A stretch of DNA of 64,000 nt from positions 1 to 64,000 of the forward strand of contig JAJFTD010000076.1 in the NCBI GenBank assembly GCA_021373255.1. The letters are read 5' to 3'. Position numbers and translations under genes: made by a program. Below are positions 21,445-62,645 of the stretch, in pieces (position 1 is the stretch's first letter; each line of letters starts with the position of its first letter). Origin of the DNA: a bacterium. GTDB taxonomy: Bacteria; Armatimonadota; UBA5829. Below the pieces are notes generated by a model. It worked only from the letters and a program-made list of their open reading frames with translations, was not told where the DNA came from and searched no databases.

Positions 21445-21582
21445 TATGATATATCTACAGCACATAATATAATGCAAACGCAGTATATCACGCTGAACAA
21501 TAGTATGCAACGGCTATTATTGAGTTTGCAAACACTTGCTGTCTATGATTTGACAAGGGACATTATATATGATATATCATAT
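21445..21582. promoter_or_regulatory. Divergent control region with GATATATC palindromes
   Basis: A perfect 16-bp palindrome, ATATGATATATCATAT, lies at 21567-21582. It overlaps the likely -10 of the regulator's promoter (TTGACA 21550-21555, then TATATC 21573-21578 after 17 bp). A near palindrome, TGTATGATATATCTACA, with the same GATATATC core, lies at 21443-21459 in front of the MDR gene. A further half-site (TATATCATAC) lies near 21590-21599. The GntR-type regulator at 21624 is the obvious candidate to bind them. Confidence 0.6.
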
Positions 21583-21623
21583 CAGTAGTTATATCATACG
21601 CAGCCACTGACTGGGAGTTTAAC

Positions 21624-22709
21624 ATGGCAACGGACAAGACTATTTCAAAGCACAGATCAGTATTAGTTCAGCGAATGATTTCTGAGATAACTGATAAAAT
21701 ACGCTCAGGCTCGCTTCGTCCCGGAGATCCATTGCCAGGAGCACACGCTCTTGCCATGGAATACGGAATCGGTTATTCTACGGTAATCCACGCCTACAAA
21801 ACATTGTCCGATGCTGGGTTGATCACCACCATCAGGGGCAGTGGGGCTTTTGTTAAATCATCTGCTAGAACCAGCCTTACAGATATTTTGGTATGCATCC
21901 CGCGTCAGACATATAACCCCCACAGTGAGTGGACAACTCATGACTTGCTGGCAGGAATGAGCACAGCCGCGCTTGCCGAAGGCATACGAATGCAAGTGTT
22001 GTTCGCTGACGCCATAGGAGACAAGTGGCGTTATACAATTGATAGTCTTGGCGAGAACGTCGGTTTGATCTTTTGCTGGGAAGCCGCTCCTGCGTGGGTA
22101 TTGCGGCTGCAACGGATGGCTATTCCCTACGCCTTGATTATGCCGAGTATCATGGGTGACTGGGAAAGTGAGCTGCCGACCGTGTTTCCCGATTATTATG
22201 GAGGAGTAAAACTAGCCGTTGAACATCTTTTGGAGCATGGCTTCACACACCTCGCGTTCCTGGGAAACCCCCATGATTCCCATGAGGGACCCAGGTATGA
22301 TGGTTATCACGATGCGTTGGAAAGCCGAGGTATCCATGAAATTGATATCATCCCATGCCCGGACATCAGCAGACACGCCGGACAGGTTGCGATGGCTCAA
22401 TACTTGACTACACACAAAAAGCCCAAATTTGATCTCCTTGTATCTGCTAACGATCTACGTGCACTTGGTGCGATGGACGTGTTATCAGCCCGAGGAATCA
22501 ATGTGCCAGGTGATCTCGCTGTGCTCGGGTTCGATAACATCCCCGCTGCCGCTGAAGCCGGGCTCTCCACAGTGCAGTTAAATATGCATGAACTGGGAGA
22601 ATCAGGCATTCATTGGTTCCTTAATAATGTTGCTGGGAAACAGGACTCGGATATTCCTAAGCTAAAGATGGATTGTCCGCCGATCTGGCGTAAGAGCACA
22701 GAGAACTAA
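21624..22709 (+). CDS. GntR-headed transcriptional regulator with LacI-type sensor domain
   Basis: The 361-residue regulator has an N-terminal GntR winged helix (SEITDKIRSGSLRPGDPLPGAHALAMEYGIGYSTVIHAYKTLSDAGLI). A C-terminal periplasmic-binding-protein-like sensor follows (HLLEHGFTHLAFLGNP, DLLVSANDLRALGAMDVL and GDLAVLGFDNIPAA), as in AraR. It is divergent from the MDR/Gfo/GH36 genes and probably represses them and itself until a sugar binds. Ligand is unknown. It is more distant from the two GntR regulators at 32497 and 37473 than those are from each other. Confidence 0.9.
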   Translation: MATDKTISKHRSVLVQRMISEITDKIRSGSLRPGDPLPGAHALAMEYGIGYSTVIHAYKTLSDAGLITTIRGSGAFVKSSARTSLTDILVCIPRQTYNPHSEWTTHDLLAGMSTAALAEGIRMQVLFADAIGDKWRYTIDSLGENVGLIFCWEAAPAWVLRLQRMAIPYALIMPSIMGDWESELPTVFPDYYGGVKLAVEHLLEHGFTHLAFLGNPHDSHEGPRYDGYHDALESRGIHEIDIIPCPDISRHAGQVAMAQYLTTHKKPKFDLLVSANDLRALGAMDVLSARGINVPGDLAVLGFDNIPAAAEAGLSTVQLNMHELGESGIHWFLNNVAGKQDSDIPKLKMDCPPIWRKSTEN

Positions 22710-23849: not shown

Positions 23850-25715
23850 TTAGTCGCTAAGTTTCACTACATCTGATGCCTTGGCATTTAGTACGCGGGT
23901 GCCGGACTGATCGGTCAGTGTTCCAACTACGGACACGTAGTTGCCGTTGGCAATTCCAGTGTAGCTCGGCGCGATAACGGTTACGGGCACGCCGGAGCCG
24001 TCATCAACGGTGAACGAATTCGTGGAAAGGATGCTCACTCTACCCCAGACTTTGAACTGATAGTTCGCTGATGCCGGAGCAATTATCGAATCATTGACTG
24101 CCTTGTTGTTGATACCTACAACCGGTGCGGTTGGAGTAGGCTCACCAGGGGTCACGTCGTTGTAGCTCACACCGTAATATACAGACAGTGCATAGTCAGA
24201 AGAATTGCTGAAATCGTCGACATTTACAGCAAAGGAGTTTACGCCACTCACTGTGCCCAGCTTGTATTCACAAATTGGGTTGGTGCCGTCGAATGTCAGC
24301 ATTGTATCGGTCGAGTTTCCGAGGTAAAGATACTCGCTCGGCTTGCCGGCAAGGTTAGCATATAATGACCAGTTTCCACCGTAGCCGGAATAGAACTGTG
24401 CATAAATGTCGTAGGTTTTCGATGAATCCAGTCCATTAACGGTGGTAGTAAGCTGAGGGCAGTCCTCACCAGTACCGCTTGCAGGATCAAACTTGGCGAA
24501 TGAACGATAAGCAGTGTCCTTGCCCCAATTAGTAAGGTCCCACTTTTGATCGTATCCGTTCCAATCTGTACCCGTTAAGGCGTCAGCCGGAGTAGTGTTG
24601 GTGGTATCAGCATGTACGAACACTCCGGTGATTCCGCCATAATTCGTGCCCGCAGGGACTTCTTTGTAGCTTACGCCATAGTAGACAGATAGTGCATAGT
24701 TGGTGCTGTCGTTGTAGTCATCAACATTCACAGAGACTGTGTTTGTACCGCTTACAACACCCACTTTATACTCGCAGATCGGATTGGTGCCATCGAATGT
24801 CAGTCCGGTCTCTGTTGCATTACTTACAGTGACCAATTTCTTGGGCTGCCCAGGCATATTTGCATAGATACCCCAGTATCCACCTTTAGCAGCGCAGAAT
24901 ACAACATAGACCTCATAGGTCTTCGTCGGGTCCAGTGTGTTGACTGTTGTAGTGATCTGAGAGCAATCTTCTCCGACTCCATTTGCCGGGTCAAATTTGG
25001 CATAAGATGTCAGGACATCGGTGAGGTTACCCCTATTCCAGGGAGTCCACAGCCCGTCGTAACCATCTTCATATGTCTTTACGGCAATAGCGTTGGAGGG
25101 ACCGGTATTGCTTGTAGTAGCCTTCACGAATGTGCCGGAGATACCTGCAGGCTTGGTTGGGACTTCCTTGTAACTAACGCCATAATAAGCAGAAATTGCA
25201 TAGTTTGATGAATCACTGTAGTCGTCGACGTCCACAGAGAAAGATGAGACACCGGTGACTGTGCCGAGTTTCACCTCGCATATCGGGTCAGTTCCATTAT
25301 ACATAATACCGGTCTTAACAGAGTTGTGAAGGGTGTAAAGCTGCTTGGCTTGACCAGACAGGTTTGCATACACACCCCAAGACCCGCCGATGACTGCAAA
25401 AAACTGAACATAGATCTCATAAGTCTTTGTGGGGTCCAGGGTATTGACGGACGTGGTAAGTTGCGGGCAGTCTTCACCAATGCCATTCACGGGGTCAAAC
25501 TTGGCATAGGATGATAGAGCGGTGTAGCTGCCCCACGGCAGCGGTGACCACTGGGCATCGTAGCCATCTGCATAATCTTTTGCAGCAATAGCACTGCCCG
25601 GGCTGGTATTTGTAGCATCAGCCTTTACGAATGTACCGGAGATGCCTGCTATCGCAGCGCTTCCGGCGAAAGCTGTAATACATACGGCGAAGATTAGCTT
25701 TCTTAACAATGACAT
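23850..25715 (-). CDS. Secreted protein with three tandem beta-rich repeats and OB-like C-terminal domain
   Basis: The 621-residue product has a signal peptide (about 1-23, cleavage after AIA). Three repeats of roughly 170 residues follow, starting near 24, 191 and 365. Each opens with GI(S/T)G(T/V)FV(K/H)A and contains SYAKFDP..G.GEDC.Q, Y(E/D)(I/V)Y and SVYYGVSY. The end (about 535-621) carries FKVWGRVS, FTVDDGSG and YVSVVGTL, an OB-like domain shared with two propeller proteins downstream. No enzyme motif is seen; a carbohydrate- or surface-binding role is a guess. It stands as a single gene before a strong terminator. Confidence 0.75.
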   Translation of the reverse strand: MSLLRKLIFAVCITAFAGSAAIAGISGTFVKADATNTSPGSAIAAKDYADGYDAQWSPLPWGSYTALSSYAKFDPVNGIGEDCPQLTTSVNTLDPTKTYEIYVQFFAVIGGSWGVYANLSGQAKQLYTLHNSVKTGIMYNGTDPICEVKLGTVTGVSSFSVDVDDYSDSSNYAISAYYGVSYKEVPTKPAGISGTFVKATTSNTGPSNAIAVKTYEDGYDGLWTPWNRGNLTDVLTSYAKFDPANGVGEDCSQITTTVNTLDPTKTYEVYVVFCAAKGGYWGIYANMPGQPKKLVTVSNATETGLTFDGTNPICEYKVGVVSGTNTVSVNVDDYNDSTNYALSVYYGVSYKEVPAGTNYGGITGVFVHADTTNTTPADALTGTDWNGYDQKWDLTNWGKDTAYRSFAKFDPASGTGEDCPQLTTTVNGLDSSKTYDIYAQFYSGYGGNWSLYANLAGKPSEYLYLGNSTDTMLTFDGTNPICEYKLGTVSGVNSFAVNVDDFSNSSDYALSVYYGVSYNDVTPGEPTPTAPVVGINNKAVNDSIIAPASANYQFKVWGRVSILSTNSFTVDDGSGVPVTVIAPSYTGIANGNYVSVVGTLTDQSGTRVLNAKASDVVKLSD

Positions 25716-25871
25716 CTGTTCAATCTCTCCTCTTCTTTATTTCAGTATTTTGGTGACAACGGACCATCTCTTCCGCATTGTTCACTTTAACCTGGATAAT
25801 GCGGCAGTCTCAAATAATGTGGGTTAGCGTATTCTCCGGTGATACAGATGTTCAACCACCCCCAACAAAAA

Positions 25872-26013
25872 CTGGATTAGTGGGTCACATAACATCTAGG
25901 CACCTCGTTACAGGTCGTTTTGTTAAGAGGGAAAATCCGGCCACGTAATCGCCCCTCCTGTACGGTGGTTCAAAGGTGCTATAATATTGATGGTAAATGA
26001 CCCACTAATCCAG
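25872..26013. mobile_element. MITE-like element, 142 bp, with 16-bp terminal inverted repeats
   Basis: CTGGATTAGTGGGTCA (25872-25887) is repeated exactly in inverse at 25998-26013. Pairing resumes further in (CATC..CACCT against the inverse of AGGTGC..GATGG), so the ends are longer, imperfect inverted repeats. The interior holds no gene. No clear target duplication is visible at the edges. It lies in the 439-bp gap between the ABC permease stop and the secreted repeat-protein start, which otherwise shows no gene. Confidence 0.7.
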
Positions 26014-26154
26014 GATGGCTGCACAATGCCGGGTATATTTGCCCATCATTGATTAGCACACCGTAGGTCATTACTACTATTTGTAATATGCCACAGGTTG
26101 TTGGGTTTGTCAAGTTAATTGTAGTATACAGACAACTCAATCATTGAGTAATGA

Positions 26155-32496: not shown

Positions 32497-33609
32497 CTAT
32501 GCTTTTCGCCGTCTTATCGGAACCGGAAGCATGTTGATGTAAACTGATGATCTCGATAGGTCACCTCCTGTAGCCTGCTCTATAGCCATTTCAGCCGCCA
32601 GTGCACCTGCTCGTGTGAAATCCGGTGCGGTAGTTGGGAACGATGGTTTGAATAACCGGGCAATGCTCAGATTATCAAACCCCACTACTTTGAACTGTTC
32701 AGGCACGTCTATGCCAAGCTCCTGAGCTATGTTGATTGTGTAGATGGCTGTCCTGTCCTCCACTGCTACAGCGGCGGTGGGGTGGTCTTTACTCTCATGC
32801 CAATTCATGAGCTTTGGCTTTATGTTCTTCTGAACATCGTCCTGGGGACTGCTGTAGATTGATTTAGCTGCGCTGAGAACCCACCTGTCTTCGTCCCTGA
32901 ATTCAATGCCGTGCTCTCTCAGTGCTTCACGGAAGCCCCTGTACCTGTCTTCTACAGACCTGACCTGTAGATTGCTGTCTTGCATCATGAATGCTATGCG
33001 TCTGTGGCCTTCTTTGATCAACATCTCCGTCATGTCGCGGCCTGCCTGGCGATTATCGAAGACTACCTGCGATATACGATGCTCCGGGTAAGCATTGTCA
33101 ATCAGGACTATTGTGAAGTCCCTGAAACTTGTTTTCAGATAGTCGTTGCGAAGTTGCTCGGCTGTCCGAGGCACGGGGTAGAGAACTACAGCCTGGCAGC
33201 CCATATCAACCATCCGTTTGATCTGCTCTTGTTCGGCATCGTAATCGTCCTGGGTGCTGGCAACTATCATGTGGTAGCCATTCTTCCTGCAGACGTCTTC
33301 TATGCCTTCATAGATATGGATGGCAATGTCGTTGTCTCCGAAAGATGATATACAGCCGATCATCTTTGTTCTCGGAGCACTGTGGACGGAGTCGGGCTCG
33401 GAAATGTAGCTGCCGCTTCCATGGCGCTTTTTCACAATGCCCCACATTTCGAGTATGTTCAAAGCGTGCTGAACAGTAGTATCAGAGGTTTTGTATATTT
33501 CTTTCAGTTCTCGAACTGTAGGAAGTTTATCCCCTGCTTTCAATTGGCCGCTGTTGACATAATCAGCGATAATTAGATTTGCAACTCTAAGCTTTACTGA
33601 TTCATTCAA
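32497..33609 (-). CDS. GntR-headed repressor with LacI-type sensor domain (copy A)
   Basis: The TTG at 33607-33609 is taken as the start, with GGTGG nine nt upstream. It aligns exactly with the ATG of the paralogue at 38585 and makes both proteins 370 residues; the ATG at 33744 precedes the promoter. The GntR helix region is [20 protein letters not shown] and [30 protein letters not shown]. The sensor domain contains [31 protein letters not shown] and [15 protein letters not shown]. It probably represses its own promoter and the local carbohydrate genes. Its effector is presumably a sugar. Confidence 0.9.
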
Positions 33610-33650
33610 TCTCGTATACCACCTAGCTTGCGTAGTAACTACTCTAGTCC

Positions 33651-33692
33651 TTACTACACTTGGAGTGTACCATGGTCGAGGTTGTTTGTCAA
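33651..33692 (-). promoter_or_regulatory. Promoter and operator of GntR copy A
   Basis: On the minus strand TTGACA (33687-33692) and TACACT (33664-33669) are spaced by exactly 17 bp. The -10 runs straight into ACACT-CCA-AGTGT followed by AGTAA (33651-33669). A further GTAGT-T-ACTAC palindrome lies near 33631-33643. Four other promoters in this region have the same layout. Confidence 0.72.
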
Positions 33693-33846
33693 TGAGTATA
33701 TGAATAATTTTTTCGAGGAAGATATATTGCAGAAACAGTGGCATTGATTACTACTCTAATGTCAGCAATAGCATGCGAGAAGGGATTTAATCGCGACAGC
33801 GCGAAGGAGCGAAAACGCGAAAGGAGAAGAAGAGATAACGCAGGTT

Positions 33847-33870
33847 ACTTCGGCATCCTGATGCCGAAGT
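33847..33870. terminator. Strong hairpin in the gap before the metallophosphoesterase stop
   Basis: ACTTCGGCATC and GATGCCGAAGT form an 11-bp stem with a 2-nt loop. Part of a 237-bp stretch (33765-34001) without a gene. Function uncertain; a T-run is lacking. Confidence 0.4.
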
Positions 33871-33928
33871 CGCCGGATGCACTATGTTTGTGTCCCCAGA
33901 ATCGTTGAATGGATGAATGAAATGAAAC

Positions 33929-33990
33929 GCTGAAGGGACTAACGCCGCACACTTGTACATTCTCATTCAGCGTCTTCATATCCCTTCAGC
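33929..33990 (-). terminator. Inverted repeat after the metallophosphoesterase gene
   Basis: GCTGAAGGGA (33929-33938) pairs with TCCCTTCAGC (33981-33990). It lies 11 nt beyond the stop codon at 34002 on the minus strand, where a transcript end is expected. The loop is 42 nt and may itself fold. Confidence 0.4.
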
Positions 33991-34001
33991 ATCTCAGCGA
34001 T

Positions 34002-36140
34002 TCAGATTTTAAGTGCAGTGAGCACACCGTCCGTTCCTGCGACGAACACGCAGTTACTCGATGTCCCAATACCTGAGAGGACGAACGATTGAGGAGAGAC
34101 GCGGTATTGCCAGAGCACCTTGCCGTCTGTTGAGGACACTGCGCTCACGAGCCCGGACCTTGAGCAGACATATACAATTCCTCCCGCTTCACTGGGGGCT
34201 GCAGGCAGATGGTCCATGGATACTGACGCGGTCCAGACTTCTTTTCCGGCATCATCAACCTTTACGAGGGCTCCGTCAGTCTTGCGAAGGAATACGTCAC
34301 TACTCCCAATCGCAAGGCCTACTGCAGACACGGCGTCTTTGTAACTGGTCAGGCTTCCTGTAGAAGCATCTATCACGGATAACCTGTACTTGCGATCCGC
34401 CACATACACCTTTCCCTTGCACACAACTGGACCGCAGTCTGCCGGGCTATAATATGCAGGAGCAGTGCCTTCGGAACTGCCCTTTCCTACACATTTCCAT
34501 ACAAGGCTTCCGTCAGAGGTATTAAGACAATACAGATAAGCATCCCAGCACCCGTAATAGATTCTGCCCTCGGCTAGGAACGGCTTGACCTCGATGTTAT
34601 ACGTAGCATCAGTGTTCTTCCATGCCAGCTTACCCTGAGATACAGAGACACTGTAAAACGCACCGTCAGCGGCTCCGAAGTAGACATGAGTGCCATCAGA
34701 CACGGGGCTGGAGTAGATCGGGCTGCCGGCAATAAACTTCCATATGAGCTTGCCTGTTGATGCCGACACGCAGTACAGCGACGTATCCTCGCTGCCGAAA
34801 TATACATTGCCACCCACAACGAGAGGCTCTGATGTCACAGCGCCACCTGTCCTAAAGCGCCAGTTCAGCTTGCCGGTTTTTATATCGTAAGCACGAAGGG
34901 AACCATCGTTTGTTCCTACATACACAGTGTTTCCCGCCGCAGTTGGGCGTGACTTGCTTGCCGCACCCATATATGCTCTCCAAAGCGCTCTGGGTCGCGC
35001 GGAATCTGTATAGAAGCTGGTAGAACGGTGGTAGGTTACGCCATCCTGCCCGGCAAAGCATACCCGGATGTAATGAGCGCCAGGCGATAGCTTGCTCACA
35101 TCGATTTCTGTCTCAAAGCTCCCTTTGGGTTGGCGTGTCAGGTTGACCTTTTGATCGCTGTCTATCTCAACATACGCATCCTTAACTTCGCCTGCCTTGA
35201 TATCTACCCATGCCTTCACGGGCATACAGTCAGTGAATGATGCACGTTCCACAGGAGATTGAATGGAAATTGATGGATAACGAGCCGCAGATGGTGCAAG
35301 TGGCTTTTCAACCATTGCGTGAGCCGCAACTGGACTTCCCTGTTCCTTAAAAGCGACTCGCAGTTTACCATTCAATACTGATATTACCTGATAGCCCGGT
35401 TTACCTGGTCCAAAAGCAGATCCGCCTTCAACCATATCGATCCCGTCGTAGTTGCTGTGCCTCACATTGTGCCCGTGGCCGACAAGGACAAGTGCAATGT
35501 TATATGGGTGAAGGATATCGACTAGGCGATCCACCTCGTATATGCCGGAGAATTCCTGGCAGTCCAGTGGGTGATGCATTGCTACAAACACAGGGCACTC
35601 CCGCCCCACCCGCGCAAGATCTTTTTTGAGCCAGTCAAGTTCTTCAGGAGACAAAACAGGCCGTGGGTCTTGAAGACCGGCGGAATCCAGAATCACAAAA
35701 TGGCAGCCAAACTTATCGAAAGAATAATAGGAAGCGCCGTATAGTTTTGTCATTTCAGGAGAAAGCGAGCGCCATGTTGAATCGTGATTGCCCAGAGCAC
35801 GGTATCTGGTCAACTTACAGGACGAATACCAAGTGTTGAGCAGGTCCCATGCGCCGTTCTTAGGGCCGAACTCTGTCATATCGCCTGTTTCTATAACGAA
35901 TGACGGTGTGATGGCATTCACTCCATAGGGCTCAAGTGTCACAGACGATAACGCTGAAAGATCCGCGATTGTGGCGGCAGTGGTCGGTCCGGAGTTTGTG
36001 TGTTCGTCACTTACGTGTATGAAGGTAAAATCTGGAATTGCTGCATAGGCACATGAGATCAAAGCCACAGTGGCAAACACTACGGCAGCCGCAGTCATAA
36101 GATTTTTCTTTAATATCAGATTAAAAGATTGCCGGTACAT
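34002..36140 (-). CDS. Secreted metallophosphoesterase fused to a PQQ-type beta-propeller
   Basis: The 712-residue protein has an N-terminal signal peptide (about 1-33). A calcineurin-like phosphoesterase domain (about 37-260) carries the metal-site motifs FIHVSDEH, ETGDMTEFG, GNHDSTW, VAMHHPLD and VGHGHN. After a short beta-domain a propeller follows (about 385-712) with repeats such as GNTVYVGTNDGSLRAYDIKTGKLNWRF, VYFGSEDTSLYCVSASTGKLIWKF and HVYFGAADGAFYSV. It starts one nt after the DUF4380-like gene and shares its promoter. Substrate is unknown; extracellular phosphoester hydrolysis is likely. Confidence 0.85.
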   Translation of the reverse strand: MYRQSFNLILKKNLMTAAAVVFATVALISCAYAAIPDFTFIHVSDEHTNSGPTTAATIADLSALSSVTLEPYGVNAITPSFVIETGDMTEFGPKNGAWDLLNTWYSSCKLTRYRALGNHDSTWRSLSPEMTKLYGASYYSFDKFGCHFVILDSAGLQDPRPVLSPEELDWLKKDLARVGRECPVFVAMHHPLDCQEFSGIYEVDRLVDILHPYNIALVLVGHGHNVRHSNYDGIDMVEGGSAFGPGKPGYQVISVLNGKLRVAFKEQGSPVAAHAMVEKPLAPSAARYPSISIQSPVERASFTDCMPVKAWVDIKAGEVKDAYVEIDSDQKVNLTRQPKGSFETEIDVSKLSPGAHYIRVCFAGQDGVTYHRSTSFYTDSARPRALWRAYMGAASKSRPTAAGNTVYVGTNDGSLRAYDIKTGKLNWRFRTGGAVTSEPLVVGGNVYFGSEDTSLYCVSASTGKLIWKFIAGSPIYSSPVSDGTHVYFGAADGAFYSVSVSQGKLAWKNTDATYNIEVKPFLAEGRIYYGCWDAYLYCLNTSDGSLVWKCVGKGSSEGTAPAYYSPADCGPVVCKGKVYVADRKYRLSVIDASTGSLTSYKDAVSAVGLAIGSSDVFLRKTDGALVKVDDAGKEVWTASVSMDHLPAAPSEAGGIVYVCSRSGLVSAVSSTDGKVLWQYRVSPQSFVLSGIGTSSNCVFVAGTDGVLTALKI

Positions 36141-36141
36141 A

Positions 36142-37188
36142 CTACTTCCCCTTCTTTGTTGACACCACTGATTGTAGTCTTAAAAAGCCCTTCTCGCGAA
36201 GTTGCTTTATTGCTGCAAAGATCGAATTCTCATCTCCAATCGGCTGAGATAACTCGATAATGCTCCATCTCTCCACCAACTCAGCGCGCTCACCCGGGCG
36301 GAGTTTACGTATTGGGCCGAGTAGTTCCATTTCCATGTATGGATATGTTGGATCGGCATATACTTCCACAGAGCAGCCGCTATGTGGATATTGAGCGCTT
36401 TTAGCCATTGGGCTGAATGATTTTATGTAGGCTAAGTTATCTTTGAGCCAGAGCAGCCATGTCCCGTCGGTATCAGCGCCGATCTTGCATCCCTCACTGG
36501 TGAACTTCGTTATGCACAAGCCGTCTTTTATATCAACTTGGCCTTTCTTCCTCCCGATGCCTTCCAGATCAGTGATACCGCCGGGGAGTTTCGTTTTCTG
36601 CCCTATCGGAAACACAACATAACACGGTGCGTTTACCTGAGTTACATTCCAGATTCCATAGGTAATGAGGTGTGAGCTGATATTTGTCAACGATTGCCTG
36701 ACAAGTGCTTCGCCGGAATCATCCAGAGAGATATCTTTAGTGAATATGACTCCACTCTTTATACTCGCGGCACCGGTAACTCTCAATAATGAACCGCCGG
36801 AAGAATCTTTGATAACTTCCACATTGGCTTTTCCATAATCAAGCATAGTGTCTGGGGGCCAGGCATATTTGTCTTTTTGAGCCAGCCAGGTTTTGTATCC
36901 GCCAAAGTTGTACCAATCTCCTGAAACTGGATATGTGCGGCCGAACTGCTCAGGATTCTCCCATATAACGTTCTTGCCACTGATCGAATACTCCATGATC
37001 CGGCCGCCGATCTCCGGCACAACAACCAGGCTTCTCGATCCAAGAGTAAGTCTATACGAGTCCTGCCACCCACGATAGTTGATCCTCTCAACTGTCGCAT
37101 TTGCGTATGCAGTCGCAGATATTGCCATCAGGAGCACAAACATGCTTAATCTTACGAGATGGAGTGCCTTTCGGAGAGTGGAGATCAT
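36142..37188 (-). CDS. Secreted DUF4380-like protein, mutarotase-type fold
   Basis: The 348-residue product has a signal peptide (about 1-29, ending ATAYA). SRSLVVVPEIGGRIMEYSISGKNVIWENP and NFGGYKTWLAQKD resemble the galactose-mutarotase-like beta-sandwich of DUF4380 proteins. This assignment rests on pattern memory, not a search. It is the first gene of a two-gene unit with the metallophosphoesterase, behind a promoter of the GntR-operator type. It may bind or isomerise a sugar outside the cytoplasm. Confidence 0.65.
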   Translation of the reverse strand: MISTLRKALHLVRLSMFVLLMAISATAYANATVERINYRGWQDSYRLTLGSRSLVVVPEIGGRIMEYSISGKNVIWENPEQFGRTYPVSGDWYNFGGYKTWLAQKDKYAWPPDTMLDYGKANVEVIKDSSGGSLLRVTGAASIKSGVIFTKDISLDDSGEALVRQSLTNISSHLITYGIWNVTQVNAPCYVVFPIGQKTKLPGGITDLEGIGRKKGQVDIKDGLCITKFTSEGCKIGADTDGTWLLWLKDNLAYIKSFSPMAKSAQYPHSGCSVEVYADPTYPYMEMELLGPIRKLRPGERAELVERWSIIELSQPIGDENSIFAAIKQLREKGFLRLQSVVSTKKGK

Positions 37189-37273
37189 TGGCAGTTCCTA
37201 TCCGGCATTTCGGATTTATGGCTTGGTATTCGTAATAGTTATCTTAAATATGTGTAGGAGTCACACAGCTCAT

Positions 37274-37316
37274 CACTACAATCCACAGTGTAGCACCGCT
37301 GTTTGTAGTTAGTCAA
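37274..37316 (-). promoter_or_regulatory. Promoter and GntR-type operator of the DUF4380-like gene
   Basis: On the minus strand TTGACT (37311-37316) and TACACT (37287-37292) are spaced by 18 bp. CACT-N9-AGTG (37274-37290) overlaps the -10 and continues as TGTAGTGAT in the transcript direction. The 44 bp at 37254-37297 match the GH2 promoter region at 42402-42445 in 40 positions. Confidence 0.72.
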
Positions 37317-37472
37317 GGAGTAAGCTCCGGGTGCGGGTCAGAAGGTCTTAAAGTCAAAAAGTCATAAGGTTGGGGAAGATATGCGTAATCTGGCCACGTA
37401 TGCTTTGGGAACGAGGGTGGCGTGCAGCCATAGAATTTACAAGTTACCGAAGCTGGGTATTGGTCTATGGAC

Positions 37473-38585
37473 TTATGCTTTTCGTCGCTTGATAGGAACT
37501 GGTAGCGTGTTTATGAAAACGGATGATCTTGCCGGATCACCCCGCTTAGCTTGTTCAATGGCCATTTCGGCAGCTATAGAACCTGCTCTTGCAAAGTCCG
37601 GGGATGTAGTCGGGAACGATGGTCTGAACAGTCGCGCCACGCTGAGGTCATCAAAACCTACCACTCTAAGTTCATCGGGCACTTTTATTCCGAAATCTTG
37701 AGCTACATTGATTGTGTAAATAGCAGTCATATCCTCAACAGCAATAGCCGCAGTAGGATGATCCTTGCTTTTACGCCAACCAGCCAACTTTTCTTCTATG
37801 TTCTTCTGAACACTCTCTTGAGGGCTGCTGTAGACTGATTCCGAAGAGCTGATGATCCAGTGGTCTTCCTCTTTGAACTCAATTCCATGATCCTGCAACG
37901 CCTCAAGGAAACCCTTATGCCTGTCTCGAACCGACCGTACCTGCAAATTGTTATCCTGAGACATAAAAGCAATGCGTTTGTGGCCTTCTTTGATCAGCAT
38001 CTCAGCCATATCACGACCAGCCAATCGATTATCGAAAACTACTTGTGATACACCCTGCTCAGGGAAAGCGTTGTCTATCAGGACTATTGGGAAATCCTTA
38101 AAGCTATTCCTCAGATAATCATTACGAAGCTGCTCTGCAGTGCGGGGTACGGGATATAGCACTATTGCCTGACAGCCCATATCAACCATCCGCTTTACTT
38201 GCTCGCGCTCGGATTCATAGTTGTCCTGGGTGTTGGCAACTATCATACAATAGGCATTTTTTCTGCAAACCTTTTCAATACCCACGTACATGCGAACGGC
38301 TATATCGTTATCGGCAAACGAGGATATGCAGCCGATCATTTTAGCTCGCTGGCCATTCTGCATACTGTTGGGTTCACATAAATAGCTTCCGCTGCCATGA
38401 CGCTTCCTCACCAACCCCCAGAGCTCAAGGATATTAAGCGCGTGCTGAACGGTAGTATCCGATGTTTTATATATATCCTTAAGTTCGCGAACAGTGGGAA
38501 GTTTATCGCCAGGTTTCAGTTTTCCGCTATCGACATAATCAGCAATTATCTGGTCTGCGACTCTGTGCTTTATAGATTCGTTCAC
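37473..38585 (-). CDS. GntR-headed repressor with LacI-type sensor domain (copy B)
   Basis: The 370-residue protein starts with ATG (NESIKHRVADQIIADYVDSG) and is strongly similar along its whole length to the repressor at 32497. The shared segments are [46 protein letters not shown] and FDDLSVARLFRPSFPTTSPDFARAG. It lies upstream of the DUF4380/phosphoesterase pair and downstream of the GH2 gene. The two copies probably recognise related operators and may sense related sugars. Confidence 0.9.
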   Translation of the reverse strand: MNESIKHRVADQIIADYVDSGKLKPGDKLPTVRELKDIYKTSDTTVQHALNILELWGLVRKRHGSGSYLCEPNSMQNGQRAKMIGCISSFADNDIAVRMYVGIEKVCRKNAYCMIVANTQDNYESEREQVKRMVDMGCQAIVLYPVPRTAEQLRNDYLRNSFKDFPIVLIDNAFPEQGVSQVVFDNRLAGRDMAEMLIKEGHKRIAFMSQDNNLQVRSVRDRHKGFLEALQDHGIEFKEEDHWIISSSESVYSSPQESVQKNIEEKLAGWRKSKDHPTAAIAVEDMTAIYTINVAQDFGIKVPDELRVVGFDDLSVARLFRPSFPTTSPDFARAGSIAAEMAIEQAKRGDPARSSVFINTLPVPIKRRKA

Positions 38586-38616
38586 CCTACTATCTCACCC
38601 GCCTATTGTAGGAATA

Positions 38617-38658
38617 CTACAGCATTAACACTGTAGCACACAAGCCAACAGTAATCAA
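38617..38658 (-). promoter_or_regulatory. Promoter and operator of GntR copy B
   Basis: TTGATT (38653-38658) and TACAGT (38630-38635) on the minus strand are spaced by 17 bp. The palindrome CTACAG-N8-CTGTAG (38617-38636) overlaps the -10, consistent with autorepression. Confidence 0.7.
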
Positions 38659-38706
38659 GCGCCTTAGTGAATATTCCACAAGAGGTTAGCAGTCCAACGT
38701 TAACAA

Positions 38707-38753
38707 ATAGTGAAAGCAGCCCATTAAATAGTCAAATTGGCTGCTTTCACTAT
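38707..38753 (-). terminator. 15-bp inverted repeat after the GH2 gene
   Basis: ATAGTGAAAGCAGCC (38707-38721) pairs perfectly with GGCTGCTTTCACTAT (38739-38753), seven nt after the GH2 stop on the minus strand, followed by TTTGTT. Confidence 0.65.
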
Positions 38754-38759
38754 TGCGAG

Positions 38760-41700
38760 CTATTTTCTTCCAGTGACTGCCACCAGAATTGGCATAGCAC
38801 TATTACCATCAGATGAGAAGTCTATGCTAATTATTCTCTTCGACGGATTCGGGTTGTCCCATGCGAGAACCCAAAGCCCTACATCCGCGCCGGAGCGATG
38901 CTTTGCTGTTATTCCGACCAATGCTTCCTTAAGATCGCCGGGGTTGTACCAATCCGCCACGTTTATGCCGTCTTTGAGAGCTACTATCTCAAAAGTACCA
39001 TCATCATAATTTACACGATACTCGCCGACTTGCCTTCCATCTCCACCACCCCATGCGAGAGCGTGGAGGAAGAAAAGCTGCTGGAGGTTGGCGTCAACCC
39101 TGATACCGTTGATCTTACCAGGGAAGTATGTTCTAAACGGACCTTTGAGGATCAGGCAGCTCTTGCCGCCGTTCTTTGCAGGATCGATGATCTCAAATGG
39201 AACTCCATTTACCATTCTCTCACCAAGCGGGATCATCCTGAAGTCATTGTCACCCTGATCAGTCCATCCACCTTTCTGGTCACCTGATACTTCATCGGAA
39301 AAGCCCTTGTTGGCGTAGGGTCTGAGGTTAATGAGTTTGACCTGGTCTTTGCTCATCTCAATATCCCTTCGATTTGCAGACCACGGCCGAACGTTGGGAA
39401 CCAGATTGTTTCCAAACGCATAAGAGAAGAGATTGTACAGATATGTGGTCGCGACGCTGTCTACATTCCACAGCTCGGCAGCATTCAACTGGCTGGCGAT
39501 TATCCTGCCATTGCCATAGGAACCCTCGGCGGTCGCGTTGAGGACCCCACGGCTTCCGCAGAACGGCCCTCTAGCTGCGAGCGCATTAACGGTAAATGGT
39601 GCCAGGCCATAGTTGATCACGTGCCCATAGCTCGGATTGCTGCTCCATGTGTCGAAATTCTCCGCTGTAAGTCCGTTGAATATGGGATGCTTCGGTATTA
39701 CAACATCAACAAAAGTATTCTCGCCTGACTGCAAGCTGCTGCCCAACCATACTTTATCTCCATAATTCTGTTCAAGCGACAGGAGAAGCCCACCGTTGGA
39801 GACCCATTGCATGAGAGTATTGCGTTTTTCCTGGGTGCTCAACAACGGATTGCGCGATGTTGCAGGAGGGACGACTATTACATCGTATCTCCCTAACGAA
39901 TTGAGATCAGATATCTGTGCAGCAGTTATACCGAGATCAGAGAAAACTTTTAGAATCCTCTTGCCCGGCTCGTCATCCTGCTTCAGTACACCTATCTTTT
40001 TCGTACTGAGCACAGTCGATGTGGCTACGGACGGGTTCTGAACAAAGATGTTATAGAAATTGCGGCTGACTTCAGACTTGCCGTTCATGAGAGTCAGGCG
40101 TAGTTGATAGTTGCCCGGCACCAGCCCATTTGGTAACTGCATGCTGATATTTTTTTTGTATTTCTCCCATGCAATTACTTTTGCCACCTTGAAGCTGCCG
40201 ATTTGCTGCTGTTTCCCGTCGGAGCTTACAAGAGTCACATTAAGGTCTAGGTTCTTCCAGTTCTCATTTCTGCTGTTCATGATAAACAGCATCGGTTTGT
40301 ACACCCTGCCGGTGAAGAAACTCGTTGGAGGAACACCATTCGCCTCGCGCAGGCCGCAGTAAGTAGGTTGATTCCATATAGTCGCGGCGTTCAGGTTAGG
40401 ATTAATGAACCACGGAGCAGCTCCCTGCACCCTATCGTTATAACGGATGATTTCCATTATCCGTTTGCCATAGACTTCCTGACCGTAAGGACACCCGAGG
40501 CCGGGATTGAGTGCGGCGGCCATTCCTATGGTCCCTGCAAAACCGACACCATTCGGCGCGCCCCAACTGGAAGCCTTGTTAGCATAAGCGGCATAAGCAT
40601 CCACATCGCCTATAGTAAAGCTCGGGTCTTCATATTGACCCCAGGAGAAACCAATGCATTCCCACACGATAAAGGGCTTATCGAACTTGCCTTTCTCGGC
40701 GTAAATGCTGCTGTCGTAGTTGATGACTCGGTTTACATCTTCTTCCCAGTGAGTCCAGGCAGGGGCGAGGAGTCCGAGATAGGTGTGATAGTCAACCAGG
40801 TCAGTATTTAGCTTCCACTTTCCAAAGAAGAACGCGGAACCGGAGAAGCTGCTGACAGGTCGACCAGTGGCATCCAGGCTTCGGACCAGCGGCACCTGCT
40901 TGTTTAGCTGTTCATAGACTGGTTTGTTGCCGTCGTAGTTAACCTCATTGCCACAGGACCACATAACTACTGATGCATGATTGTAATCACGATAGACCCA
41001 CTGCTTCAGTTCCTGCAGGTTAGTCTTTTCGAATGACTTGTCCAGAGTGTTCGAGAACGCCCATGCCCATTCGTCGTAGATCAGCAGTCCTATTTCGTCA
41101 GCTACATCAAGTACTTCAGGAACAATGGGCTGGTGAGCAGTGCGGATTATATTATAGCCACGGGATTTGAACCCAAGCAGGGAGTTGCGGATGTGGGCGG
41201 ATTCGTCCTTAGCTGATCGTTTACTGCCGCCATACCAGATCGAGGGAATGTTCTCTCCAAATAGATATATGCGCTTACCGTTGAGGTAGAAGTTGGGCCC
41301 CTTGGCTTTGAAACTGCGATACCCGAACCTCTCAGCATGGGCTGACACCATTTTCTTGCCATCCCGCAAGGCCAGGACGAGATAGTAAAGATGAGGATTC
41401 TCAGGACTCCATAGCACAGGATTCTTCAGCTTTATCTGCACCTTGCCCAGGTTTTCGCCGGGCAGTAACTTGATTTTGCCAAGATTGATGTTGGCTGGTT
41501 GGTCTTTGGAGATCATTACTGCCGATTGGACAATTCCCTGTAAACTCATATATTGAGTTTTCCCGGTGACATTGGCTATACAGTATTCCACTGTAACCTT
41601 TGATGTGGTTATATCAGGAGATATCAGTGCGCGCTTTACATAAATCTTCGGTACATAGGTGAGCCATGCACTCTGCCAGATGCCTGCCTTGATATCACCT

Positions 41701-42365
41701 ATGCCCCACTGATCTCCATAGGCATGCTTTGCTGTCTTTACACCAAACGAAGGGCCAAAGTCGGAAAATACGCGCAGTGCGATGGTATTACTCTTACCGA
41801 ACTTAATCCACTTGGTGATATCAGCGTCCCAGGGGATAAAATCGCCGTGATGGCTGGATGCAAGTTGGCCGTTTATAAACAGGTCGGCCTGGTATCCTAC
41901 CACTCCAAAATGGATTAATACGTTCTTTCCATTTCCTGAGGCCGGGATAGTTATGGTTTTCCTATACCATGCTTTCACATATGGCGCTTCATACTGGCGT
42001 GCTTGTGGATACTGCTCATACCAGTTCAGGGGAACCTTTATGCTGTCCCATGCTTTGTCATCGTAGTTTGTGCCTGCGTAGCTTTTGTCCAAATCTACGT
42101 TAATAGCAAAGGGCTCCTGGCTGTTAACTGGAGGCAGTATCTTCCAATCTCCATCAAGTGAAACTATCTTTTCATAGTTTGCCAGGCTAAAAGACGCTAT
42201 ACCATTGATCTTGCTGCTGAGTTGGTCCTTTGGTATAATCCGTGCTGAATATGTTATGGGTTTAGCCTGTGGGTAATAGGGGGCAATAGTTGCTCCCTGT
42301 GCACTACTAAACATGCAGCCGCACGCTACCGCAAGTACAGCCAGCCGACACCATATCTTTATCAC
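38760..42365 (-). CDS. Secreted GH2-family beta-galactosidase-like enzyme with C-terminal amidotransferase-like domain
   Basis: The 1201-residue protein has a signal peptide (about 1-24). The GH2 sugar-binding domain (VSLDGDWKILPP, YVKAWYRKTITIP, DLFINGQLASSHHGDF) and immunoglobulin-like domain come next, then a TIM barrel. The acid/base is Glu474 in VVMWSCGNEVN and the likely nucleophile Glu569 in PFIVWECIGF. RTAHQPIVPEVLDVADEIGLLIYDEW matches GH2 barrels. About residues 780-1000 look like a ThuA/class I amidotransferase-like fold (RYDVIVVPPAT, QWVSNGGLLLSLEQ, GNGRIIASQLNAAE). Exact sugar specificity is unknown. Its promoter carries the GntR-type operator. Confidence 0.86.
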   Translation of the reverse strand: MIKIWCRLAVLAVACGCMFSSAQGATIAPYYPQAKPITYSARIIPKDQLSSKINGIASFSLANYEKIVSLDGDWKILPPVNSQEPFAINVDLDKSYAGTNYDDKAWDSIKVPLNWYEQYPQARQYEAPYVKAWYRKTITIPASGNGKNVLIHFGVVGYQADLFINGQLASSHHGDFIPWDADITKWIKFGKSNTIALRVFSDFGPSFGVKTAKHAYGDQWGIGDIKAGIWQSAWLTYVPKIYVKRALISPDITTSKVTVEYCIANVTGKTQYMSLQGIVQSAVMISKDQPANINLGKIKLLPGENLGKVQIKLKNPVLWSPENPHLYYLVLALRDGKKMVSAHAERFGYRSFKAKGPNFYLNGKRIYLFGENIPSIWYGGSKRSAKDESAHIRNSLLGFKSRGYNIIRTAHQPIVPEVLDVADEIGLLIYDEWAWAFSNTLDKSFEKTNLQELKQWVYRDYNHASVVMWSCGNEVNYDGNKPVYEQLNKQVPLVRSLDATGRPVSSFSGSAFFFGKWKLNTDLVDYHTYLGLLAPAWTHWEEDVNRVINYDSSIYAEKGKFDKPFIVWECIGFSWGQYEDPSFTIGDVDAYAAYANKASSWGAPNGVGFAGTIGMAAALNPGLGCPYGQEVYGKRIMEIIRYNDRVQGAAPWFINPNLNAATIWNQPTYCGLREANGVPPTSFFTGRVYKPMLFIMNSRNENWKNLDLNVTLVSSDGKQQQIGSFKVAKVIAWEKYKKNISMQLPNGLVPGNYQLRLTLMNGKSEVSRNFYNIFVQNPSVATSTVLSTKKIGVLKQDDEPGKRILKVFSDLGITAAQISDLNSLGRYDVIVVPPATSRNPLLSTQEKRNTLMQWVSNGGLLLSLEQNYGDKVWLGSSLQSGENTFVDVVIPKHPIFNGLTAENFDTWSSNPSYGHVINYGLAPFTVNALAARGPFCGSRGVLNATAEGSYGNGRIIASQLNAAELWNVDSVATTYLYNLFSYAFGNNLVPNVRPWSANRRDIEMSKDQVKLINLRPYANKGFSDEVSGDQKGGWTDQGDNDFRMIPLGERMVNGVPFEIIDPAKNGGKSCLILKGPFRTYFPGKINGIRVDANLQQLFFLHALAWGGGDGRQVGEYRVNYDDGTFEIVALKDGINVADWYNPGDLKEALVGITAKHRSGADVGLWVLAWDNPNPSKRIISIDFSSDGNSAMPILVAVTGRK

Positions 42366-42421
42366 GACTTTTCACCTCCATGTGGAGCTTAAGCGCCAAT
42401 TGTAGGAGTCATCAAGCTCAT

Positions 42422-42463
42422 CACTACAATCCACAGTGTAACACCACAATATGAAGTAGTCAA
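42422..42463 (-). promoter_or_regulatory. Promoter and GntR-type operator of the GH2 gene
   Basis: TTGACT (42458-42463) and TACACT (42435-42440) on the minus strand are spaced by 17 bp; CACT-N9-AGTG at 42422-42438 overlaps the -10. The site is identical in sequence to the one at 37274-37290. Confidence 0.72.
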
Positions 42464-42515
42464 GATGCAATATTGGTGGAAATATGGCACAGCCAGAATA
42501 TATCCAGCATCGATG

Positions 42516-42557
42516 TTGACAAGCTCAACAGCCCATGCTAACCTACTAATGTAGTAA
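42516..42557 (+). promoter_or_regulatory. Promoter and GntR-type operator of the Gfo/Idh/MocA gene
   Basis: TTGACA (42516-42521) and TAACCT (42539-42544) are spaced by 17 bp. CTAC-TAAT-GTAG (42543-42554) overlaps the -10 and continues as TGTAGTAAT, like the four other sites of this group. Confidence 0.68.
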
Positions 42558-42660
42558 TCACGGGATTGTTTACTATCTGGTGAGATGCATCAGTGGTTCG
42601 TTATTTTACTCCCTCAACTCCATCGAGCGAACGGGAGATCAGTAGCCTTGGAGGAGTATT

Positions 42661-43908
42661 ATGAAAAAGGTTTCTTTTGTGCTTGTTGGTGCCGGATGCA
42701 GAGGATGGTGCTACAGCAAGTACATTGAAGAGTATCCCGAAGAGGGAGAAGTAGTTGCAGTGTGTGAGCCGATTGACGCAGAGCGCAAAAGGTATGGGGA
42801 TGCTTTCAACATACCCGAAGAGATGAGGTTCCGTGACTGGCGAGACATCCTGGACAAGCCAAAGATGGCTGATGCAGCGATTATATGCACCCAGGACGCC
42901 GACCACCGCGACCCCGCGATTGCATTGGCAAATAAAGGCTATCACCTATTGCTTGAGAAGCCAATGGCACCAACCCCCGAAGACTGCAAAGCAATCTGTA
43001 AAGCCGCAAACGACAACAACATCATGCTGGCGGTATGCCATGTATTACGATACACAGCGTTCAACCGCAAGCTCAAAGAAATGATAGACAGCGGAATAAT
43101 TGGTAAAGTCCACACTATCCAGCAGTTGGAACCAGTCGGCTATTGGCATCAGGCGCACTCTTTCGTTCGTGGTAACTGGAGAAACGAGGAAGAATCTTCC
43201 CCGATGCTCCTGGCGAAATCCTGCCACGACATCGACCTTATCAACTATTTCATGCCTGCCAAGTGCAAAGCAGTATCATCATTCGGCAACCTTTCATACT
43301 TCAACCGTGCAAATCAACCCAAAGGCGCAGCCGATCGCTGCACTGATTGTCCGAAGGATATCGAATCGAAGTGTCCCTACTCTGCATTGAAGATATATAC
43401 CAGAGATAGAACAAATCTGGAAGAGTGGCCAGTGGTTGTTCTATCGCACGAAGGGACCCCTGAAGCCATAATGAATGCGCTCAAGACCGGACCTTACGGG
43501 CGGTGCGTGTTTGCGTGCGATAATGATGTTGTCGACCATCAAGTGGTCAATATGGAGTTTGAAGACAACTCCACTGCTACATTCACTATGACAGCGTTCA
43601 ACTTTAGTGCAGGTCGTGAGACTTTGATCATGGGTGACCAGGGAATGCTCAGATGCACGGACGATGGCATTGTGCATTCGGACTTCCTTTCCGACACCAA
43701 GACCACGATCCCGTTGTATATGGGTGATGGTCAGATAACATCAGGCCACGGCGGGGGTGACTTTGGACTGATGCAGAGCTTCCTTGCCGCGGTTCGTAAC
43801 AACGATCCTTCACTCATTTCATCGGGCTATGATGTATCTCTTGAAAGCCACCTGATCGTTTTTGCCGCAGAAAAAGCCCGCCTTAACAAGACAGTAGAAG
43901 TGATGTAG
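42661..43908 (+). CDS. Gfo/Idh/MocA-family oxidoreductase with cysteine cluster (copy 1)
   Basis: The 415-residue enzyme follows GGAGGAGTATT. It has VSFVLVGAGCRGWCYSKY (Rossmann motif), LLLEKPMAPTPEDC (EKP motif) and SCHDIDLINYFMP. CTDCPKDIESKCPYSALKIY puts three cysteines in a CxxC-x7-C pattern, unusual for the family and possibly a metal site. GHGGGDFGLM lies near the end. It probably oxidises a sugar or cyclitol derivative. It is very similar to the copy at 61243 but sits behind a different operator. Confidence 0.88.
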   Translation: MKKVSFVLVGAGCRGWCYSKYIEEYPEEGEVVAVCEPIDAERKRYGDAFNIPEEMRFRDWRDILDKPKMADAAIICTQDADHRDPAIALANKGYHLLLEKPMAPTPEDCKAICKAANDNNIMLAVCHVLRYTAFNRKLKEMIDSGIIGKVHTIQQLEPVGYWHQAHSFVRGNWRNEEESSPMLLAKSCHDIDLINYFMPAKCKAVSSFGNLSYFNRANQPKGAADRCTDCPKDIESKCPYSALKIYTRDRTNLEEWPVVVLSHEGTPEAIMNALKTGPYGRCVFACDNDVVDHQVVNMEFEDNSTATFTMTAFNFSAGRETLIMGDQGMLRCTDDGIVHSDFLSDTKTTIPLYMGDGQITSGHGGGDFGLMQSFLAAVRNNDPSLISSGYDVSLESHLIVFAAEKARLNKTVEVM

Positions 43909-47470: not shown

Positions 47471-48436
47471 CTATTTCTTCCGCCGGTAAATTGCACCAGC
47501 ACCAAAGAGCCCAAACACAAGAGCAACAATGCTGCCCGGCTCTGGCACTGATGGCGTAAAGACCATATACCTGGAGCCACCGATTCCGGCTGCGCCCAGA
47601 TCTGAGATAATTGTGCTTACATACTTGCCTTCGTTAGCCTTGCCGATACCGCCAAACCTGCACAGTCTGGTTCCATCGTTGGCATAAACATCGCCATCAG
47701 CAGGGTTAAAAGCAAGTATTGACGGAGTGCCCATTCCGCTGCCGGTAAGATCAAGGAACTGGCCTATTAGCGCATCAGGGCTAGTTCCATTCGCTCCCTG
47801 GTAGCGGTTTACGCCAACATAAACATTGCCATCAGGCCCTACGACAGGATTAAATTTCTCGTAAATATAACCTAATACTTCAATCCCGTGCCAGTGCTGG
47901 ATGCTGCCGTTGTAATCATTATAGTCATAGATATAGAAATCACCATTAGGTGCAGCAGCCAATGTTCCAGGGTTCCACAGTGGCCAGACATTGTCTACCG
48001 CCGGCGCTAATTCTGTAAAGGCGTTCGACTTTGTGGGGCCAGCGATATGCACTAGTCTTCTGGTGTTCCAATCGCCATTAACTGCAGCAAGCGCAACATA
48101 GATGTCTCCATCTGAGCCGAATGTCACGCCACCCATTGCACTTGATCCAGCATTATAAACATCGCCCATGTCTTCCATTGTTGTCGGGTTCAGCTTTGTT
48201 ATCATGTTGTGATTCGTGTCATTTACATAGAGATTGCCATCAGGCCCAAATGCTATTTCGCTGCAAGTACCAATACCACCGTTGCTGTTTATCTTCTGTC
48301 CGGTATCGGAAAGGTGATATACGCCACCTCCCCAGAACGTGCCGATATACAAATCAGCATTCGCGACTGAGCCCAGCAGGGCACAAAGAGATACGGCCGT
48401 TGCACAAACAATATTCAAACCAAGTTTCATTTTCAT
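47471..48436 (-). CDS. Secreted single beta-propeller protein with PEP-CTERM sorting signal
   Basis: The 321-residue protein starts after GGGAGGAG with seven nt spacing. It has a signal peptide (about 1-27) and one propeller domain nearly identical to the first domain of the next gene. The tail is VPEPGSIVALVFGLFGAG followed by AIYRRKK, the PEP-CTERM arrangement of a PEP motif, a hydrophobic helix and basic end that exosortases process. It is thus likely surface-anchored, unlike its larger relatives. Its promoter region carries the LacI-type palindrome at 48567. Confidence 0.83.
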   Translation of the reverse strand: MKMKLGLNIVCATAVSLCALLGSVANADLYIGTFWGGGVYHLSDTGQKINSNGGIGTCSEIAFGPDGNLYVNDTNHNMITKLNPTTMEDMGDVYNAGSSAMGGVTFGSDGDIYVALAAVNGDWNTRRLVHIAGPTKSNAFTELAPAVDNVWPLWNPGTLAAAPNGDFYIYDYNDYNGSIQHWHGIEVLGYIYEKFNPVVGPDGNVYVGVNRYQGANGTSPDALIGQFLDLTGSGMGTPSILAFNPADGDVYANDGTRLCRFGGIGKANEGKYVSTIISDLGAAGIGGSRYMVFTPSVPEPGSIVALVFGLFGAGAIYRRKK

Positions 48437-48566: not shown

Positions 48567-48587
48567 TGTTCACGTGAACACTTTATA
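48567..48587 (-). promoter_or_regulatory. LacI-type operator in front of the PEP-CTERM propeller gene
   Basis: The perfect palindrome TGTTCACGTGAACA lies at 48567-48580. On the minus strand it directly follows TATAAA (48582-48587), a plausible -10, though the -35 is weak. The remaining 275-bp gap up to 48711 holds no gene. Confidence 0.68.
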
Positions 48588-62493: not shown

Positions 62494-62645
62494 AATACTA
62501 CCTCTTATGAATCAAGTTGGATACTTGTTGGATTTACGGAAAGAGGTTGTTTCGGGATACCCCTATCCCGAAACCCCTTCGTATGCAGTGGGAGTATCGG
62601 GAAAGGGGTTTCCCGATACAACTTTAATACTACCTCTTATGAATC
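62494..62645. repeat. 20-bp direct repeats flanking twin hairpins
   Basis: The same 20 bp (containing TACTACCTCTTATGAATC) occurs at 62494-62513 and 62626-62645. Between them stand two 11-bp stem hairpins with 4-nt loops: 62549-62574 (GTTTCGGGATA, CCCC loop) and 62594-62619 (GTATCGGGAAA, GGGG loop). On the minus strand each copy supplies AAGAGGTAG, the Gfo gene's ribosome site in the proximal copy. This looks like an insertion or duplication in the lacI-Gfo gap. Confidence 0.7.

Follow-up and report, generated by a model that had tools for sequence, protein, structure and literature searches.

The closest described system is AraR of Bacillus subtilis, in which a GntR-type helix-turn-helix (HTH) is joined to a LacI-type sensor, and which controls the arabinose regulon through palindromic sites in its target promoters and at its own gene (PMC4218819, PMC4494728). 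The combination of a GntR winged HTH with a LacI-type sensor is the architecture of the AraR subfamily; the same paper tabulates the base-contacting positions in FadR and AraR, and describes further half-sites lying 7-12 nt away from the midpoint of GntR palindromes (PMC4494728). Two paralogous regulators acting in one sugar pathway are also reported, namely the AgaR pair of streptococci (PMC4694137). A literature search found no paper on GntR- or LacI-type regulation in Armatimonadota.

The DNA analysed here is a stretch of 64,000 nucleotides from an Armatimonadota genome (contig JAJFTD010000076.1, positions 1 to 64,000), referred to as the window. A first-pass annotation had described five promoters, each running into a GntR-type operator, in front of two paralogous repressors and three other genes. 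The simplest reading, which we consider probable, is that a duplicated and autoregulated AraR-type repressor governs a small local regulon for sugars or polysaccharides, acting by steric block at the promoters. The genes concerned are as follows.

32497..33609, minus strand, repressor 1, a GntR-LacI hybrid (Pfam GntR and Peripla_BP_3)
37473..38585, minus strand, repressor 2, a GntR-LacI hybrid (Pfam), 74% identical to repressor 1
36142..37188, minus strand, DUF4380 protein, candidate target (domain search)
34002..36140, minus strand, calcineurin-like phosphoesterase and PQQ beta-propeller protein, candidate target downstream of the DUF4380 gene (domain search)
38760..42365, minus strand, GH2 glycoside hydrolase of 1201 aa, candidate target (domain search)
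42661..43908, plus strand, Gfo/Idh/MocA oxidoreductase, candidate target (domain search)

Both repressors have an N-terminal GntR winged HTH (PF00392, E=3.7e-14 and 2.2e-14) and a C-terminal LacI/GalR-type effector domain (PF13377/PF00532), which matches the effector domain of AraR (3tb6, E=1.2e-17). The annotation was right to call them close paralogues, but they are not plain GntR proteins, as the LacI-type sensor makes them AraR type. The start of repressor 1 is taken as the TTG at 33609, because homology with its paralogue begins there (at LNESVK) and the longer frame, to the ATG at 33744, crosses the gene's own operator. The ligand-contact residues of PurR were mapped approximately onto the two pockets via the alignment from the 3tb6 search; this hints that most sugar-pocket positions may be the same in both proteins, with differences around WIISSSESV / WVLSAAKSI.

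The candidate targets are carbohydrate or cell-surface enzymes, and the window also holds two GH39-like genes, another GH2, a rhamnosidase, a melibiase-family gene and ABC sugar transporter genes. A second Gfo/Idh/MocA gene (61243-62640, minus strand) resembles the one at 42661 and adjoins a LacI-family gene (62664-63704); upstream of it there is no TGTAG operator, and there are two inverted-repeat stretches and a repeated GATTCATAAGAGGTAGTATT leader. Elsewhere, a perfect 14-bp palindrome, TGTTCACGTGAACA, lies at 48567-48580 (minus strand) shortly behind TTGACA-like promoter sequences and upstream of ORF 47471-48436, and looks like another LacI/GntR-type operator.

All five promoters can be read directly in the sequence with a -35/-10 pair at 17-18 bp, and all five have an extended -10 (TGn ahead of the hexamer). 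A putative operator of one family was located behind each of them, and thus precedes both repressor genes and the GH2, DUF4380 and Gfo/Idh/MocA genes, as had been claimed.

33664..33692, minus strand, P33609 promoter, TTGACA-17-TACACT, extended -10
33631..33658, minus strand, P33609 candidate operator, TGTAGTAAGGACTAGAGTAGTTACTACG, gap 5 bp from the -10
37287..37316, minus strand, P37188 promoter, TTGACT-18-TACACT, extended -10
37253..37280, minus strand, P37188 candidate operator, TGTAGTGATGAGCTGTGTGACTCCTACA, gap 6 bp
38630..38658, minus strand, P38585 promoter, TTGATT-17-TACAGT, extended -10
38607..38621, minus strand, P38585 variant compact candidate operator, TGTAGTATTCCTACA, gap 8 bp, 13 bp shorter than the others
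42435..42463, minus strand, P42365 promoter, TTGACT-17-TACACT, extended -10
42401..42428, minus strand, P42365 candidate operator, TGTAGTGATGAGCTTGATGACTCCTACA, gap 6 bp
42516..42544, plus strand, P42516 promoter, TTGACA-17-TAACCT, extended -10
42550..42577, plus strand, P42516 candidate operator, TGTAGTAATCACGGGATTGTTTACTATC, gap 5 bp

Four of the five (at 33.6, 37.2, 42.4 and 42.5 kb) have TTGAC(A/T), a spacer of 17 or 18 bp, the extended -10, and then TGTAGTRATSAC after 5-6 bp. The promoter at 38.6 kb is a variant, reading TACAGT-N8-TGTAGTATT. The first-pass annotation had given approximately TACACT-N5-TGTAGTRAT for all five sites. A TGTAG does stand behind each -10, but the N5 is wrong in three cases (the gaps are 5, 5, 6, 6 and 8), and TGTAGTRAT does not fit P38585. 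The fused promoter-operator observation is nonetheless largely real.

The left arm proposed by the annotation is present, but a second arm had been missed. Four operators form a bipartite 28-bp inverted repeat, TGTAGTRA-N12-TYACTACA, with the inverted arm 20 bp on from the start of TGTAG. The right arm at this fixed spacing reads CTACA (P37188 and P42365), CTACG (P33609) or CTATC (P42516). In P38585 the form is compact, TGTAG-N5-CTACA, as though 13 bp between the arms were lost. The dyad-symmetric GT...AC feature of the GntR consensus NyGTNxACNy is found, as TGT...ACA in P37188 and P42365 and TGT...ACG in P33609, and only partially in P42516. The right arm provides an independent test because the annotation had made no use of it. 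With 25 of 28 positions in common, the P37188 and P42365 operators probably arose by copying and do not count as two independent observations; P37188 was therefore left out and P33609, P42516 and P42365 were treated as independent sites. The summed match of their right arms at the best common spacing was reached in 0 of 100,000 shuffles (joint p<1e-5).

Each arm might instead be a compact GntR box (GT-N2..7-AC), so that the operator would consist of two boxes in tandem, one for each of two dimers, and not of one wide repeat for a single dimer. This is possible, although we doubt it. It would account for the 11-bp palindrome GTAGTTACTAC in the right arm of the P33609 operator, for the compact form of P38585, and for boxes paired 17 bp apart in two homologues elsewhere, L023 (CTGTTCNGAACAG twice) and L095 (GTTNATAAC twice). 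The arms of P37188 and P42365, however, are not self-symmetric, and in a set of 19 sites including those of the window the direct-repeat signal is weak (z 2.4 at offset 17), whereas the inverted-repeat signal is higher at lengths 24-30 (z 5.1 at 26 and 3.6 at 28). A set of 15 regulators from outside the window does not establish a wide inverted repeat across the phylum (p=0.07), and taken one at a time the individual inverted repeats are not significant.

A fused element was defined as a promoter matching at least 9 of 12 positions, with TGTAGTRATSAC no more than 10 bp further on and no more than one mismatch in it. The window contains five (33658-, 37280-, 42428-, 42550+ and 26078-), and 60 first-order Markov copies of it contain none; two search patterns lacking the SAC extension found 2 and 1, against 0.06 expected per window each. 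Since the motif was derived from the sites themselves, these counts show that the set is extraordinary and do not show that its members bind protein. The promoters alone carry no weight, because their density in the region (25) is not above that in shuffles (25.9). In the 4.2-Mb genome the 28-bp pattern occurs seven times with up to two mismatches, and four of these copies are inside this 9-kb stretch. The literal motif of the annotation, TACACTN5TGTAGTRAT, is not enriched genome-wide (54+69 matches against 94+92 in the reversed control); the elements are local. TGTAG-N18-CTACA alone was discarded as too weak a signature (78 matches against 239 in the control), and promoter matches at L239 and L252, without the SAC extension and right arm, were judged to be chance.

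Of the three 28-bp copies outside the region, one (C168:23658-23685 in G000; L212 9659-9686) lies between two divergent SASA-type esterase genes and is flanked by outward promoters, TTGACT-17-TATACT and TTGACT-17-TACATT, which were not features of the search. It is probably a real, unlinked member of the regulon, to judge from this context. The other two have no promoter context and look like chance. Two further candidates lie in the window.

26051..26113, minus strand, additional fused element P26078, TTGACA-17-CATATT-N6-AGTAGTAATGACCTACGGTGTGCTAATC, before ORF 23850-25715
33728..33755, minus strand, possible auxiliary weak operator, AGTAGTAATCAATGCCACTGTTTCTGCA, 3 mismatches, 97 bp centre-to-centre upstream of the P33609 operator

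The weak site could conceivably allow looping, as with paired AraR boxes. P26078 had been missed by the annotation. Its left arm fits, but in its TTGACA-17-CATATT-N6-AGTAGTAATGAC the right arm does not, and it was set apart from the full TGTAG family: its right part, GTGTGCTAATC, recurs on contig C159 in front of a GH2 paralogue 52% identical to that of the window. The promoter there (C159:18370-18412) resembles P26078 and reads TTGACA-17-CATATT-N6-TGTAGGAATCAC. P26078 and the C159 promoter would thus have a putative operator in common that is akin to the TGTAG sites yet distinct from them. Behind the C159 GH2 lies a gene that starts like window ORF 23850-25715 (AGISGTFVKAD), and the C159 GH2 operon (L274, G000:C159:14137-18412) has the promoter and operator letters CTGTGGCATATTA...GTGTGCTAATCA in common with this ORF (window 23850-26113).

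The HTH regions of repressors 1 and 2 are equal at 58 of 71 residues, and the recognition helix and wing (KRHGSGSY) are identical; among their residues are those at which FadR and AraR are in contact with bases (table 1 of PMC4494728; the mapping is ours). Because of this identity, both repressors should bind all these sites, and shared binding with cross-talk is what one would expect by default. The sites themselves can be sorted into two classes, with right arm TCCTACA and gaps of 6-8, or with right arm TTACTA and a gap of 5. This would suit two sub-regulons, in which repressor 2 controls itself, DUF4380 and GH2 through the first class and repressor 1 controls itself and the Gfo/Idh/MocA gene through the second, cross-talk being weak or transitional after the duplication. 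The near-identity of P37188 and P42365 would fit, as would the TCCTACAATNGGCG shared by P38585 and P42365 and the 19 of 28 positions equal between P33609 and P42516. The identical DNA-contact residues argue against such a division, however, and the likeness of P37188 and P42365 may come from recent copying of a promoter cassette. We regard a division of this kind as rather unlikely.

A comparison with sister regulators strengthens the case that the TGTAG sites belong to this pair of repressors. The genome has 29 matches to this GntR-LacI protein type, and eight further paralogues show 39-47% identity along most of their length. For most of these eight, a near-consensus promoter of the TTGACA-17-TATAAT type lies immediately upstream, and in several cases an inverted repeat of the gene's own follows the -10. 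Three of the regulators (L006, L007, L008) share the helix SNSIIVHALGLL and the operator TGTCWGAA-N10-TTCWGACA right behind the -10, which L007 and L008 match with 2 and 3 mismatches. Two unlinked promoters, at C65:4824 and C16:9551, also have this TGTCTGAAC operator, one base after TTGACA-17-CATAAT. The helix nearest to that of the window pair is that of L005 (SGTTIVHAL), the third gene in an operon headed by the promoter TTGACA-17-TATATT and then GGTAGTGACACC. L009 and L010 share a helix, and no obvious common operator was seen by eye. A third hybrid in the window itself (21624-22709) has TGATATATCATATCA behind its own promoter. With the exception of L009 and L010, operator letters and recognition helix thus vary in step, so that linking the TGTAG sites to the window pair has more than position behind it, and the recurrence of one layout with a different operator and helix supports autorepression. 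At 21550-21600 (plus strand), at the third hybrid, TTGACA is followed by TGATATATCATATCAGTAGTTATATCA, its own differing operator. In G047 (L220 9794-9823), two perfect 13-bp palindromes, CTGTTCNGAACAG, stand 17 bp apart behind the perfect TTGACA-17-TATAAT of a related regulator.

With 29 proteins of this type in the genome, the sites could in principle belong to another regulator, such as the third hybrid or some other paralogue. We consider this very unlikely, since the promoter of the third hybrid is followed by other letters and it is the two repressor genes themselves that have TGTAG sites in front of them. That the shared sequence is a mere remnant of duplicated promoter cassettes with no operator role is hardly credible: P37188 and P42365 are nearly identical, but the spacers differ among P33609, P42516 and P42365 while both arms persist, and the same layout occurs with other operator letters at the sister regulators.

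No orthologous locus was found in 14 other genomes of the family. Within the genus the best match to the regulator is a distant one (E about 1e-15); elsewhere in the family no GH2 exceeds about 38% identity, and DUF4380 reaches 39% at best. A scan of the collection with a single repressor protein gave no match, while one with the repressor alignment gave named relatives from Armatimonadota (HR16, Capsulimonadaceae, Chthonomonadia).

Repression by a duplicated AraR-type protein might operate as follows. The regulated promoters would be of the sigma-70 extended -10 kind, with the operator 5-8 bp behind. The operator would be bipartite: a strong arm, TGTAGTRATSAC, next to the -10 and a weaker one, inverted, would together span 28 bp, shortened in P38585. 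From promoter anatomy, the start site is expected at the edge of the left arm or inside it, so that bound repressor would cover it and block RNA polymerase, and a sugar ligand on the LacI-type domain would release the repressor. If both proteins bind all sites, each would repress itself and the other copy. Counting against this reading, P38585 departs in length, and P26078 and the C159 promoter are without the right arm. A more far-reaching version is doubtful but worth stating: a wide bipartite operator (24-28 bp) behind an extended -10 may characterise an Armatimonadota AraR-type lineage and be re-lettered together with the helix after each duplication, and in this window two identical-headed repressors may compete for the same sites, possibly sensing different sugars, as a two-input switch.

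The analysis gives a concrete predicted operator, regulon and regulator pair for a phylum in which no work on such regulators was found. With at least two operator classes paired with recognition helices in one genome, it also offers a small natural data set for studying the GntR recognition code and the way in which repressors divide up their targets soon after duplication.

The window pair is like AraR in its two-domain architecture, in having carbohydrate genes as putative targets, and in its predicted palindromic operators at targets and own genes. The AraR box, however, is 16 bp long, At(T/A)tGTaCGTAcaa(A/T)T, whereas the window operators are 28 bp. A 16-bp operator with a GTACGTAC-like core is not present here; it is a trait of B. 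subtilis AraR itself and does not define the subfamily. AraR is described as a lone repressor whose boxes are single or paired, while here there are two near-identical repressors. The pair of paralogous sugar regulators in one pathway recalls streptococcal AgaR, in another organism and pathway (PMC4694137). With GntR operators of the form NyGTNxACNy the window sites have the GT...AC dyad in common, but their outer GT and AC are 22 bp apart, whereas in the FadR and HutC types they are close to the centre; among GntR subfamilies, GT and AC far from the centre are described only for YtrA. It is concluded that the predicted operator is new, and the proposed mechanism of an ordinary kind.
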